This document shows, piece by piece, positions 6,530 through 44,952 of a stretch of DNA of 44,952 bases. A program made the translations under genes and the position numbers. The stretch's first letter is position 1, and each line of letters opens with the position of its first letter. This DNA comes from Planctomycetota bacterium (GTDB lineage Bacteria > Planctomycetota > Uabimicrobiia > Uabimicrobiales > JABWCH01). The stretch spans positions 1 through 44,952 of the forward strand of contig JAGVGO010000112.1 in NCBI GenBank assembly GCA_020057085.1, given 5' to 3'. Below the pieces are notes generated by a model. The model was given only the letters and a program-made list of their open reading frames with translations. It ran no database searches and had not been told where the DNA came from.

Positions 6530-6565
6530 ATACTCTGTGTCACGGCTATACCGTGACACGGGTAT
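6530..6565. repeat. GTGTCACGGC hairpin repeat, copy a
   Basis: atactctgtgtcacggctataccgtgacacgggtat; inverted in flanking context relative to copies b and c. Confidence 0.85.
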
Positions 6566-6572
6566 TCGTCTT

Positions 6573-6600
6573 ATTATATCACATTTTAGTAAAAGGCAAA
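6573..6600 (-). promoter_or_regulatory. Candidate sigma70-type promoter for the STAS gene
   Basis: Minus strand reads TTTGCC-N16-TATAAT with TG extended -10 (AAATGTGATATAATA). Confidence 0.5.
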
Positions 6601-6615
6601 TATTTTTTGGCAGGC

Positions 6616-6694
6616 ATCTTGCACTCGTGTCACTGCTATGCCGTGACACAGAGTATCTTGTACTCGTGTCACGGCTAATGCCGTGACACAGAGT
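6616..6694. repeat. Tandem direct repeat of a hairpin unit (39 + 40 bp), copies b and c
   Basis: ATCTTG[C/T]ACTCGTGTCAC[T/G]GCTA(A)TGCCGTGACACAGAGT twice, then a partial third ATCTTGTGTCTC. Confidence 0.9.
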
Positions 6695-6704
6695 ATCTTG
6701 TGTC

Positions 6705-16077: not shown

Positions 16078-16216
16078 GGGCGTATCCAATAATTAGGGGG
16101 CATAGTAACTTTTTTGAAATAAGTACAAGCTTATAACGCCTATAACCTCTCCCCTGGCGGGAGAGGTTATACTCTACCCATAATTTTTCTATCCCCCCGA
16201 AGTGTTAGATACGCCC
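16078..16216. mobile_element. MITE-like element, copy 2 (139 bp)
   Basis: Imperfect terminal inverted repeats GGGCGTATCCAATAATTAGGGGGCATAG / revcomp GGGCGTATCTAACACTTCGGGGGGATAG; 9-bp direct repeat CATAAGAAA at 16069-16077 and 16217-16225; no ORF encoding a transposase. Confidence 0.85.
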
Positions 16217-16367
16217 CATAAGAAAATCTCTGACACTCGGCCCTTGTATCATACGATATTTGCGACGAATTTTCAATAATGAAATGGCGCAGGCAAGGCG
16301 TCTAGCTTCGGGCGCTTTGTCTGAAACTTCAGGTTTGGCCGAGATGGGGCTCGGCGTTCCCAGGGCA

Positions 16368-20019: not shown

Positions 20020-20931
20020 ATGGCTGACTTTACACAGAAGTTGGAGCAGATTCGATCCATTCTTGGCACACCATACTGTGCTGGAAACGGTTACTCCATT
20101 TACAACTGTGATTGCTTGGAGGCTATGAGATATCTCCCTTCCTCATTGATTGATCTGACGGTAACAAGTCCACCTTATAACATAGGAAAAGAATATGAGA
20201 GAGTTCTTCCTTTGGAAGAATACTTAACTTGGTGTGAACAATGGATCAAAGAAATTTACCGTCTAACATCTCCCAATGGTGCATTCTGGCTCAATGTAGG
20301 TTATATTTCAATCCCACAAAAGGCTAAGGCTATTCCTTTGCCTTATTTACTTTGGAACCGAATTCCTTTCTATCTTATTCAAGAAGTGGTCTGGAACTAC
20401 GGCGCCGGGATAGCTGGAAAGAAATTTTTGTCGCCTCGCAATGAGAAATTTCTATGGTATGTCAAGAACAAGGACTCCTACCTATTCAATTTAGACGACA
20501 TCCGCGACCCTGATGTAAAGTACCCCAACCAAAAGAAAAACGGGAAACTTCGCTGTAATACTATTGGCAAGAATCCTTCAGATGTGTGGGAGATAGCTAA
20601 AGTTACGTCTGGCCAAAATCGCTCTTCACCTGAACGTACTCCTCATCCAGCACAATTCCCACGAGACCTTATTGACCGAATTATCAAAGGTTTTTCCAAG
20701 CCGGGCGATTTGGTTATGGACCCTTTCATGGGATCTGGTACCACTGCAGAGGCTTCGGTAATGTGTGGTAGGTACACAATCGGTTTTGAAATCAATATTT
20801 CTTATTGCAAGTATATTGCCTACCGCCTTCAGAAATGTCGCTATAACTCGGTTAATCACTCATTGGAAATCGATAATAAACAATCTTCTCAATCTCAGAG
20901 TACCCAACTTTCTCTGTTTGAATCTTTATAA
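20020..20931 (+). CDS. Type II DNA methyltransferase (N4-cytosine/N6-adenine class)
   Basis: VTSPPYNIG catalytic motif, DLVMDPFMGSGTTAEASVMCGRYTIGFEI SAM-binding motif. Confidence 0.92.
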   Translation: MADFTQKLEQIRSILGTPYCAGNGYSIYNCDCLEAMRYLPSSLIDLTVTSPPYNIGKEYERVLPLEEYLTWCEQWIKEIYRLTSPNGAFWLNVGYISIPQKAKAIPLPYLLWNRIPFYLIQEVVWNYGAGIAGKKFLSPRNEKFLWYVKNKDSYLFNLDDIRDPDVKYPNQKKNGKLRCNTIGKNPSDVWEIAKVTSGQNRSSPERTPHPAQFPRDLIDRIIKGFSKPGDLVMDPFMGSGTTAEASVMCGRYTIGFEINISYCKYIAYRLQKCRYNSVNHSLEIDNKQSSQSQSTQLSLFESL

Positions 20932-21671
20932 GGTAGAGCTTTATTTTTAAAATTACATATCTTGGCATCATTACCGTTGTAGTTGAGCAACTCGCGGACT
21001 GTATAAATATCACATTGTTTAAGATATTCTGTATTTTGTGATCCGATCCCTGGCAAGAGCGATACAGGGGCATTCTGCCTATAGTTACCAGGCACTACCA
21101 AAAGCTTCGACTCATAAACATAGTCAGGTAATCCAGCCATTTGGCCAGTAGGAGCCTTTTGTGGCTGCCAGTCTGAGAAATCAATCCATCCAAAACGAAT
21201 TAAAGTTAAGATTTGTTGATAGAAATTTACCGTTATGTAATAGCCGGATTTGTCTTTGCACTCTTTATTTTTTTGCACTCCCTTCTGGCCAAAACTCCTG
21301 TTTCCAAATATCTTTGTTCCCAACTGTCCTGATGCCTTGATTTCAATTGAGAATCCATTGTCAGGTATGTAAACCAAGTCTTTCTCATCCTTTGCCGAGC
21401 CTCCTCTCCATTTTCCCCAACATCTCTTGCCTAGTTCATGAGCGAAAAGTTTCTCAAAGAAATACCCTACTACAGTAGCTGGTATATCAAGTTCTTGTAA
21501 TCGTAGACAAGTTTCTCCATAACCAATCTTGGTTTCCCAAAGTACTTGCCAGCAGAAGGTCGCAATTTTCTCTGTCTCATCAAGACTCAAAGGATGATTT
21601 CTGATTAGTTCTTTTGTCACAGCTTGATACAATGATTTGTCCTTCCCTTCGTAAGGAGACTGTAAGTTCAT
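20895..21671 (-). CDS. ScaI-like type II restriction endonuclease
   Basis: SPYEG.....ELIRNHPLS, KDLVYIPDNGFSIEIKASG (PD/D-ExK-like D...EIK), GNRSFGQ, KDKSGYYITVNF, IRFGWIDFSDW, TGQMAGL resemble the ScaI family from recall; convergent 37-bp overlap with the methyltransferase. Confidence 0.7.
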   Translation of the reverse strand: MNLQSPYEGKDKSLYQAVTKELIRNHPLSLDETEKIATFCWQVLWETKIGYGETCLRLQELDIPATVVGYFFEKLFAHELGKRCWGKWRGGSAKDEKDLVYIPDNGFSIEIKASGQLGTKIFGNRSFGQKGVQKNKECKDKSGYYITVNFYQQILTLIRFGWIDFSDWQPQKAPTGQMAGLPDYVYESKLLVVPGNYRQNAPVSLLPGIGSQNTEYLKQCDIYTVRELLNYNGNDAKICNFKNKALPYKDSNRESWVL

Positions 21672-22072: not shown

Positions 22073-22500
22073 TACAATATTTTCTCGTTTTGCTATCTTT
22101 TTCTTTGGCTTATTTTGCTTTATTCCAGCGGAGCTATCATCTGTCTATTCCTAAAATACAAGGTCTTATGCCTGGGATAATTATTTTTTTCCAAAAGCCT
22201 TAGAATACAGGGCTTGAGATGGCTATTTGGGCATAACTATCAGAAACCACAATGGTTGGTAAATTGACGCGCTAATAAAAAATTAACCCAACCGAGAGCA
22301 TTTCTTTTGCATTTAGACATTGGTAACAAAATGATGACTTTATGTCTACAGACTATAAGTAGCATTTTATAATTCAATGCTCAAACGCGACGGCGAGCAG
22401 GGTGACAATCTTTTGCCGTTGGGAACATCATCTTGCCAAATAGATGTGCGTGTGGTACAGTAAGTAGGTGCAGTAGAGATTGCGTATCATGTACCTTTAG

Positions 22501-22656
22501 TCGCCGTCAAAAAATAAATGTCAATATTTGCGCCGAGATTTTGGGCAATGGCGAGAAGTGACCGAAGGCGCATAGCCATAGTTCTGTAACTGAGGGCACG
22601 ACGATGCCATTGCCCAAAAGATCAAGAAAAAAATTGACACTTATTTTTTGACGGCT
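22501..22656. mobile_element. Long-inverted-repeat (MITE-like) element, copy 1
   Basis: GCCGTCAAAAAATAAATGTCAAT ... ATTGACACTTATTTTTTGACGGC; internal GGGCAATGGC/GCCATTGCCC stem; CCTTTAG direct repeat at 22494-22500 and 22657-22663; homologous to 44802-44952 in reverse orientation. Confidence 0.85.
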
Positions 22657-22700
22657 CCTTTAGCGTATATCGTTTTGTCGAGAGAAATGGAAGTTAAGTT

Positions 22701-28315: not shown

Positions 28316-29068
28316 ATGTTACAAAAACTATCAGTGTTGGTATTGTCTTTGTGTCTGTTCAGCACTGTGGCTGCCGAGCCGTTGAACTGGTTTACCGAAC
28401 CTACCGCGGCATTTGCCAAGGCTCAGGCAACCGGTAAACCGATTTTTACCGATGTGTTCACTACCTGGTGCAGTTGGTGCAAAAAACTTGATGAGGAAAC
28501 CTTCAGTACGCCAGAATTCCAGGCCGAAGCAGCCCGCTTCGTCTTGCTCAAGGTGGACGGCGACAAGTACCCTACTTTCAAAACACAACATGGTGTGCCC
28601 GGTTACCCGACCATGCTGTTCCTGAACGCAGAGGACCAGGAAATCCATACCAAGGTCGTCGGCTTTAAGACAGCCGATAAACTGGTGCCGATCATGAAAG
28701 AAGTACCCGCTTCCGTCGCGCCGCAAATGACCAGCGATATTAGCTGGTACACCGTGCCGGAGAAGGCTTTTGAAGCGGCCAAGGCGCAGCGCAAACCGAT
28801 CTTCACCGATGTGTTCACCACCTGGTGCCATTGGTGCAAGAAACTCGATGAAGAAACCTTCAGCGCACCACAATTCCATGCCGAAGCAGCCCGCTTTATC
28901 CTGCTCAAGGTAGATGGCGACCAGTATAGCGAATTTGTGTTGAAATATAGCGTGTCCGGCTATCCTACTATGCTGTTCCTGAACGGCGATGGCCAGGAAA
29001 TCCATGCCAAGGCCGTCGGCTTTAAGACAGCCGATAAACTGGTGCCGATCATGAAGGAAGTGAAGTAA
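28316..29068 (+). CDS. Secreted tandem thioredoxin-like protein
   Basis: Signal peptide, then two modules with CSWCKK and CHWCKK active-site-like motifs. Confidence 0.88.
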   Translation: MLQKLSVLVLSLCLFSTVAAEPLNWFTEPTAAFAKAQATGKPIFTDVFTTWCSWCKKLDEETFSTPEFQAEAARFVLLKVDGDKYPTFKTQHGVPGYPTMLFLNAEDQEIHTKVVGFKTADKLVPIMKEVPASVAPQMTSDISWYTVPEKAFEAAKAQRKPIFTDVFTTWCHWCKKLDEETFSAPQFHAEAARFILLKVDGDQYSEFVLKYSVSGYPTMLFLNGDGQEIHAKAVGFKTADKLVPIMKEVK

Positions 29069-43135: not shown

Positions 43136-44800
43136 ATGAGTTGGTTCCACTATCTGCAAGATGCCGGGCAGCTCGGAGCGGCCCGCGAACTTGCCCGATT
43201 TATTTGTCAGAGTCTCGCACCAGAAGGCGACAATATTGACAAAGTTATTGCTATATATAATGAAATCAAAGACGCAAATGCTAAACAAAAAATAGACGCT
43301 TTGCTGCAGATCATTAGCACCAACGGACGTGAGATACTGGAAGACATGCAATATATCCAGGCCGAGAGCGACGCAATGAAACTGGAACTGTTGATAGCTA
43401 TGCCCGATCAGGAAGCTCGTTTTGCCGATCTCAGGACGAAAATCATCAATGAGATCGCAGAATTGGATGAGCTATGGCAAAAAACTTGGACAACCGAGCC
43501 GACAGGCGGCGAAAACGTCGAATCGTTAGCAGACTCGACCTGTACGCCGACGGGCGACGAAAACATCGAACCGATAGCAAACTCGGCCAGTGAAGCGACA
43601 GGCGAGGAAAATCTTTCATCTGCACCTATATGGACAAGCGAAATGGCGAACGCCGAAGACCCCTTAGCTGCACCCATATGGACAAGTGAGCCAGGGGAGG
43701 GCGAAGCGCCGTTGCCCACACCAACGGCAGGGACTCGTGAGCAAGGAGATCCAGGCACACTGATGCCTACGCAAAGAAGAAAGGTTTTGCATTTCAAGCG
43801 AAGCGATAGCCCATTGAAGAAAGGGGCAAGCGCCGCAATAACCAGAGCGATTTCGCCTGTAAAAACGAACGAAACCGGCGTACGCACGCCGGTGGCCGGC
43901 GCGGAAAAGCCAGTAGGCAGCGTAGTAAAAGAAGCACCGTCCAAGGACGCAGCCCCCTATCCCGAAATTGCCAAACCAGCGACGCCCAAGGAAACCAAGG
44001 TTAGGCCGGCGTGCCCTGAAATCAAAGGGTTTCGTTGCACAGGCGAGATGGCCTTCGCCTGCGGCGACGTCATCAACAAAGTGGTAGAGTACCAGCATGA
44101 ACAGACTGGCATGATGTTTACTCTGCTGCCAGGAGGCGCTTTCTTGATGGGAAGCCCTGATTCCGAGAAAGGCAGGATTGCCTGCGAAGGTCCGCAGCAC
44201 ACCGTCAACATCAAACCGTTTCTCATTGGCCAGCATGAAGTGACACAGGCTGTCTGGTTTAGAATCATGGCGAGTAAACCATGGCGATTGATGAAATGGT
44301 TTATCAAAGAACATGTGCGGGAAGGCGGTCTTTATCCGGCCATACATGTTTCGTGGCACGATGCCAAAGAATTTTGCAGAAAATTGGAATTCTCGCTGCC
44401 TAGCGAAGCCCAATGGGAATATGCCTGCCGCGCCGGCGCCAATACCAAATACTATTGGGGCAACGACATGGACAATGATTATTGCTGGCATTGGGACAAT
44501 GCCGGCGACAAGGAAGATGCCTATGCCCACGAGGTCGGACAGCGCGTGCCAAACTCCTTCAATTTGTACGACATGCTCGGCAATGTCTGGGAGTGGTGCG
44601 ACGATACCTTGCACGAAAATTATCAGAATGCGCCAAACGATGGCAGTGCCTGGATTGACTTCAAAAGCACTCTGCGCGTCATCCGTGGCGGTGCATGGAA
44701 CTCCTGGTCAGACCGCAGCCGTTGTGCCACCCGCAACCACAGCGACCCCAAAGTCAAGTTGGACACGATCGGCTTTCGCGTAGTAAAAACATTGGATTAA
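43136..44800 (+). CDS. SUMF1/formylglycine-generating-enzyme-like C-terminal domain protein with repeat-rich linker
   Basis: GGAFLMGSPDSEKGR, SLPSEAQWEYACRAG, NSFNLYDMLGNVWEWCDD, VIRGGAWNS, GFRVVKT; AAGGAGG Shine-Dalgarno upstream of the 43136 ATG. Confidence 0.9.
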   Translation: MSWFHYLQDAGQLGAARELARFICQSLAPEGDNIDKVIAIYNEIKDANAKQKIDALLQIISTNGREILEDMQYIQAESDAMKLELLIAMPDQEARFADLRTKIINEIAELDELWQKTWTTEPTGGENVESLADSTCTPTGDENIEPIANSASEATGEENLSSAPIWTSEMANAEDPLAAPIWTSEPGEGEAPLPTPTAGTREQGDPGTLMPTQRRKVLHFKRSDSPLKKGASAAITRAISPVKTNETGVRTPVAGAEKPVGSVVKEAPSKDAAPYPEIAKPATPKETKVRPACPEIKGFRCTGEMAFACGDVINKVVEYQHEQTGMMFTLLPGGAFLMGSPDSEKGRIACEGPQHTVNIKPFLIGQHEVTQAVWFRIMASKPWRLMKWFIKEHVREGGLYPAIHVSWHDAKEFCRKLEFSLPSEAQWEYACRAGANTKYYWGNDMDNDYCWHWDNAGDKEDAYAHEVGQRVPNSFNLYDMLGNVWEWCDDTLHENYQNAPNDGSAWIDFKSTLRVIRGGAWNSWSDRSRCATRNHSDPKVKLDTIGFRVVKTLD

Positions 44801-44801
44801 G

Positions 44802-44952
44802 TCGCTGTAAAAAAATAACCTTTACAACTTACTTGATCTTTTGACCAATGGCATCGTCGCGCCCTCAGTTACAGAGCTACGGCTATGCGCCTTCGGTCGC
44901 TTCTAGCCCTTGGCCAAAATCTCGGCGCAACTTGTAAAGGTTATTTATTTAC
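44802..44952. mobile_element. Long-inverted-repeat (MITE-like) element, copy 2 (runs to window end)
   Basis: Core near-identical to the reverse complement of 22501-22656; arms GTAAAAAAATAACCTTTACAA / TTGTAAAGGTTATTTATTTAC. Confidence 0.85.

Follow-up and report, generated by a model that had tools for sequence, protein, structure and literature searches.

Palindromic, MITE-like repeats dispersed through Planctomycetota carry a strand-specific fold that is probably under selection

The window analyzed here, a whole contig of 44,952 nucleotides from a Planctomycetota bacterium, contains two copies of a palindromic element of about 156 bp. A Ser/Thr kinase gene starts ~43 bp downstream of copy 1, whose structured strand is there the + strand of the window. 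Copy 2 immediately follows the TAA stop codon (44798-44800) of a gene with an FGE-sulfatase domain, its structured strand being antisense to this gene. Beside copy 1, at 20020-21671, convergent genes for a DNA methylase (PF01555) and a ScaI-like restriction endonuclease (PF09569) probably constitute a restriction-modification pair. Elsewhere in the window, two 357-bp direct repeats with 77-87% identity (28316-29068) lie within one ORF as an internal gene duplication, and short hairpin repeats of the TGTCACGGCTATACCGTGACA type are clustered between genes at 6530-6701. A second, unrelated MITE-like element of ~140 bp, with ends GGGCGTATC...GATACGCCC, is found at 16078-16217 and at about 28-99, its central hairpin loop being inverted between these two copies. 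It also occurs at the loci L018, L053, and L079, and in L018 it interrupts an arm of the ~156-bp element. The features of the latter in the window are as follows.

22500-22658, + strand (the strand with the apparently constrained fold): copy 1, whole element, from matches to the models R1 and R2, with boundaries from 48 copies of the home genome and strand from the mismatch and stability tests
22496-22499, no strand: target-site duplication TTTA, left of copy 1, placed by the register of the family
22659-22662, no strand: target-site duplication TTTA, right of copy 1, placed by the register of the family
22500-22536, + strand: outer arm (terminal inverted repeat), 5' side, inner limit approximate
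22622-22658, + strand: outer arm (terminal inverted repeat), 3' side, inner limit approximate
22539-22552, + strand: inner stem, 5' side, TTTTGGGCAATGGC, with significant covariation
22606-22619, + strand: inner stem, 3' side, GCCATTGCCCAAAA, with significant covariation
22553-22605, + strand: conserved core with apical hairpin, whose core-only profile matches members in other families
44801-44952, - strand (structured strand): copy 2, truncated by the contig end

A re-reading of the window bears out most of what the initial annotation had described for the two copies. Their cores are near-identical (~90% identity) and in opposite orientation, and their arms differ while each pair remains self-complementary, being AAATAAGTGTCAAT/ATTGACATTTATTT in copy 1 (with one G.T) and AAATAACCTTTACAA/TTGTAAAGGTTATTT in copy 2. 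Also, the swap of one G:C pair to C:G in the GGGCAATGGC stem is correct, the adjoining pair being A.C in copy 2, and the absence of a transposase ORF agrees with the lack of any long ORF within the element. The proposed target-site duplication CCTTTAG stands in part: TTTA is real, whereas the CC and G around it are either part of the element or coincidence. Copy 1 has a fold energy z of -9.0 relative to dinucleotide shuffles. Its outermost ends are swapped with respect to the core, with GGAGC and GCGAC on the sides opposite to those of most copies; thus, the interior of copy 1 is inverted relative to its ends, and the locus L038 has the same right end.

The home genome (G000) is a fragmented planctomycete assembly of 288 contigs and 59% completeness. 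In it, copy 1 as a query retrieves 49 matching pieces, and a covariance model (R1), built from an alignment of 28 full copies (A1), gives 103 matches, of which 16 are, by our count, opposite-strand readings of places already listed. This leaves ~87 places: ~55 full and clearly scored, 28 partial, and about four weak. A scan for the end motifs yields 117 sites, against five in the reversed control. The suggestion that the two copies belong to a larger dispersed family is therefore supported, since the home genome has ~83 clearly scored places and 31 further Planctomycetota genomes also give matches. The ~28 partial matches are mostly located at contig ends, including position 44952 of the window itself, and so the repeat fragments the assembly. 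The element is typically ~156 bp long (~155-208 bp), lacks an ORF, and is a near-perfect palindrome from end to end, 42-52 of the ~57 arm positions being paired. Longer copies with an extra apical hairpin (L040, L052, L053, and L060) and short forms consisting only of arms (L048, L054, and L066) are also present. Within subfamilies, the arms are near constant at unrelated sites.

Placement is almost always intergenic, with only three of 93 copies placed within an ORF by a simple ORF caller, and copies often immediately precede a gene or lie at a stop codon. At least 10 of them, copy 2 included, abut a stop codon because the target is TAA. No significant orientation bias relative to the neighboring genes is observed, which counts against the explanation preferred below. 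At L061, L062, and L075, the left end motif GTCGCTGTAAAAAAATAAG occurs by itself, a few bases before start codons, with the rest of the element absent; these solo motifs of the home genome are either solo ends or chance leader-like motifs.

Evidence for mobility comes from the flanks. The 3-bp sequences to the left and right are equal in 24 of 48 home-genome copies, against 7.2 expected (with a maximum of 15 among 2000 permutations), and in 13 of 34 copies of G004, a genome of the same order, against 7.9 expected (p about 0.01). For these counts, the boundaries were adjusted toward T.A flanks, each side separately, and the same adjusted flanks were used in the permutation. The target in the home genome is TNA, mostly TTA or TAA, and G170 shows the same 3-bp pattern (TGA/TGA and TAA/TAA pairs). 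In G005 and G154, on the other hand, the flanks are TA or CTAG, and the duplication of TA within CTAG expected of IS630-mobilized elements fits G154, G005, and G328 but not the 3-bp TNA of G000 and G170. This variation in the length of the duplication among genomes also counts against the preferred explanation. Moreover, a nested insertion was found in G154, where the copy L204 interrupts the core of another copy, is flanked by CTAG on either side, and carries its own arms along; intact copies of this genome show the uninterrupted insertion site.

Matches to R1 are found in G003, G004, and G005, all of the same order, the last one being a single contig of 9.50 Mb. A second model (R2), for which 29 diverse members were taken on the complementary strand, has matches in 30 genera, or 32 of the 392 Planctomycetota genomes. 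Reverse-strand self-matches reach 63 bits, and the weak R2 matches left unread are uncertain because any long palindrome earns some score. Outside the order, 36 matches from 17 genomes were read, most of them with the core motif GGCAAGGCGCGACGA ... GGAGGAGCAACGAAG or a variant of it. A profile of the 52-nt core, from which the arms were omitted, recovers members from several other families, with E values as low as 1.8e-6 in 119 kb, and these matches fall at the predicted place and strand. Therefore, at least part of the spread corresponds to sequence homology and not just to shared palindromes. In G154, 259 end-like sites were counted, against 32 in the control. Pattern matches in L186 (a record titled Akkermansia) and in three viral contigs were discarded as chance matches without a palindrome; another viral scan, with a different pattern, and a search of plasmids gave no matches. 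In G005, ends of the type GGGCGTGTCATCAATTAA also bound ~43-bp palindromes consisting only of arms and ~170-270-bp elements whose other interiors resemble paired REP/RPE hairpins (L167-L176, L178-L183), so that one end type serves several interiors.

A full-length insertion sequence with matching termini, proposed as a source of mobility in trans, was not found among the listed end pairs, the G154 sites, and the transposase family searches, the home genome being 59% complete. For example, no transposase with matching ends occurs among the listed end pairs in G005 or at the G154 sites examined. Searches with PF13586, PF01609, PF13340, and PF13359 gave one transposase in G000 and one weak match in G003, with no partner for the family; the former is flanked by other repeats and was rejected. 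Also rejected was L254 in G154, a pair of ends separated by 2 kb that match by chance within a coding ORF. In this genome, an element with a CTAG target sits in a copy of the family and encodes a transposase that we take to be of the IS630 type from reading the protein by eye rather than from a profile search. The ends of this element are GTGGGGCGAGTC, against GTGTCCTGGATC in the family.

Regarding the fold, RNAalifold predicts 41 pairs on A1, 23 of them changed on both sides. On the 82-member sequence alignment, it recovers mainly the inner stem because the arms of different subfamilies align poorly. The covariation expected from the initial annotation does exceed a phylogenetic null: the top five of all column pairs belong to the inner stem, four of them with E<0.05 and mainly Watson-Crick and the fifth at 0.067, under a self-written, tree-preserving null (FastTree tree, Fitch states, and substitutions reshuffled along branches) that is not the official R-scape. 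About 40 double Watson-Crick changes and ~29 single wobble-type changes were counted in the inner stem. The pairs of the outer arms rank high, yet they fail the all-pairs test, and this is counted against the preferred explanation. A kink-turn at the tandem G·A beside the inner stem was considered and dropped, since the bulge is not adjacent.

The nature of the mismatches distinguishes the two strands. Isolated mismatches, counted where two Watson-Crick pairs flank each side and de-duplicated by position, pair, and context, comprise 80 G.U against 16 A.C, and 66 purine-purine against 14 pyrimidine-pyrimidine, when read on the complement of the strand initially described; the G·U excess is absent from that initial strand. 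The direction is the same in the home order and in other families, and for each of the outer and inner stems taken alone. Since the members are related, the counts lack independence, but the 17 genomes outside the order agree. The same strand is also the more stable one in 81 of 82 and 36 of 36 elements (117/118), and the asymmetry persists with DNA energy parameters. In the home set, the core and not the pairing determined the strand assignment; for the other-family set, it came from the model, which may favor the G.U-rich strand, although the core motif has the same direction. Repair of a palindrome should by itself leave symmetric mismatches, and therefore a single-stranded form is probably under selection. 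A similar G.U excess could also arise from strand-biased mutation, such as might accompany transcription or transposition. Between selection and hairpin-templated repair, the two causes initially offered for the paired changes, the asymmetric mismatches favor selection, whereas the multi-base arm switches and inverted interiors suggest that repair contributes too.

Altogether, we consider it probable, with moderate confidence, that the repeats are Planctomycetota-wide, non-autonomous, MITE-like DNA transposons of ~156 bp, palindromic and moved in trans, in which a strand-specific hairpin is under selection. A transposase acting in trans would cut the ends and insert the element into TNA in some genomes and into TA or CTAG in others; IS5- or IS630-type enzymes insert at such targets. 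The element would persist because one strand is used folded and single-stranded, most likely as a transcript and less likely as ssDNA during transposition. The complementarity of the arms would be restored partly by selection on the fold, with G.U and G.A tolerated and A.C purged, and partly by hairpin-templated repair, which might also flip the interior as in copy 1; the arm sequence would thus drift while the fold and the core stay. RNA appears likelier than ssDNA as the single-stranded form because the target duplications suggest an enzyme acting on double strands (DDE-type) and because tolerance of G.U is a typical RNA trait. As a more tentative possibility, the selfish element itself may be a ~156-nt folded transcript with a fixed core and changeable terminal repeats, an RNA core that would ride different transposases (TNA- and TA/CTAG-targeting) across the phylum.

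Other explanations were weighed against this selected-fold MITE. The repeats could be ordinary MITEs with an unselected fold, whose palindromes are kept by template switching and copying from master elements and whose core is conserved by descent after a recent spread. Template switching can yield multi-base compensatory changes and loop inversions (PMC8794818), and the multi-base arm differences, inverted interiors, and arms-only short forms observed here are in line with it, so that this process probably contributes to the changes in the family. However, the strand asymmetry of the mismatches and the conservation of the core between families, arms excluded, make it somewhat unlikely that the fold is unselected. 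The asymmetry, which holds with DNA parameters, would equally suit a hairpin moved as ssDNA by a Y1/HUH enzyme (REP/TnpA-REP or IS200/IS605-like) that recognizes the folded strand, with no need for RNA. Such enzymes do recognize irregular hairpins, but their chemistry makes no target duplications, and the repeats have duplications instead of the insertion without duplication of the IS200/IS605 type. Movement of this kind is therefore unlikely, even if REP dimers inside long palindromes are reported (PMC3733652), since the GTAG or CGTC tag with a short stem is also absent.

The intergenic placement, frequently at stop codons or a short way upstream of genes, together with the strand-specific fold, would also be compatible with an amplified RNA or regulatory element of the host, such as a terminator, a leader, or an sRNA gene. 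Nonetheless, copy number is hugely variable, many genomes lack the element, the subfamilies are lineage-specific, target duplications are present, the gene-orientation bias is not significant, and the TAA target accounts for the placement at stop codons, all of which renders a host function very unlikely. Finally, the wide variation of the arms, the enclosure of other interiors by the same arm ends in G005, and the similar placement reported for REP dimers (PMC3733652) could indicate that the core alone is mobile and was inserted into older, unrelated palindromes. However, the target duplications lie outside the arms and the arms are near constant at unrelated sites within subfamilies, and the nested L204, which carries its arms, leaves the proposal close to refuted.

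With respect to known systems, the favored explanation, a MITE with a selected hairpin, belongs to a general kind already described. Prokaryotic MITEs, such as the Correia elements of Neisseria, are shorter than 500 bp, with inverted ends, target duplication, no transposase, intergenic location, and stable hairpin transcripts, and Correia elements can invert (PMC10969869). The family shares the small size, inverted ends, target duplication, lack of transposase, intergenic placement, and inversion. Similarly, RUP and BOX of Streptococcus pneumoniae are short repeats that have inverted ends, duplicate their target, and are predicted to give structured transcripts, and the ends of RUP resemble IS630-Spn1 (PMC3049150); these were described in one species and are likened to the family by description and not by sequence. 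The IS630-like element of G154 shares the CTAG target but differs from the family in its ends. The GTAG/CGTC REPs and BIMEs are dispersed extragenic palindromes, with some REP dimers within longer palindromes, and REPs are known from deep phyla, including Planctomycetes (GTAG, PVC) (PMC3733652). However, REPs are 20-40-bp palindromes with an unpaired GTAG or CGTC tag, whereas the family has ~156 bp and a target duplication and lacks the tag architecture. At the gathering score, Rfam gives no match for the window, E-value searches of related loci give sub-threshold matches only, and no description in Planctomycetota was found in the open-access literature, which is weak evidence.

With the middle and the one-strand fold kept as the ends diverge, it becomes directly testable whether a bacterial mini-transposon can be selected as a folded single strand and whether this strand is RNA. 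Moreover, the comparison of G·U with A·C is an inexpensive test for other repeats, separating a selected fold from palindrome repair that is symmetric between strands. As a general kind, MITEs are known, and the family shows most of the features that define them: short length, no transposase ORF, terminal inverted repeats, and target duplication. MITEs are usually described by their ends because the transposase must recognize them, and they are normally traced by conserved ends common to an insertion sequence. Here, by contrast, the ends diverge, no insertion sequence with matching ends was found among the end pairs, sites, and transposase families searched, and it is the interior core and the one-strand fold that are conserved across the phylum. 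What sets the family apart is this conserved core and one-strand fold, with ends that change freely over a phylum.
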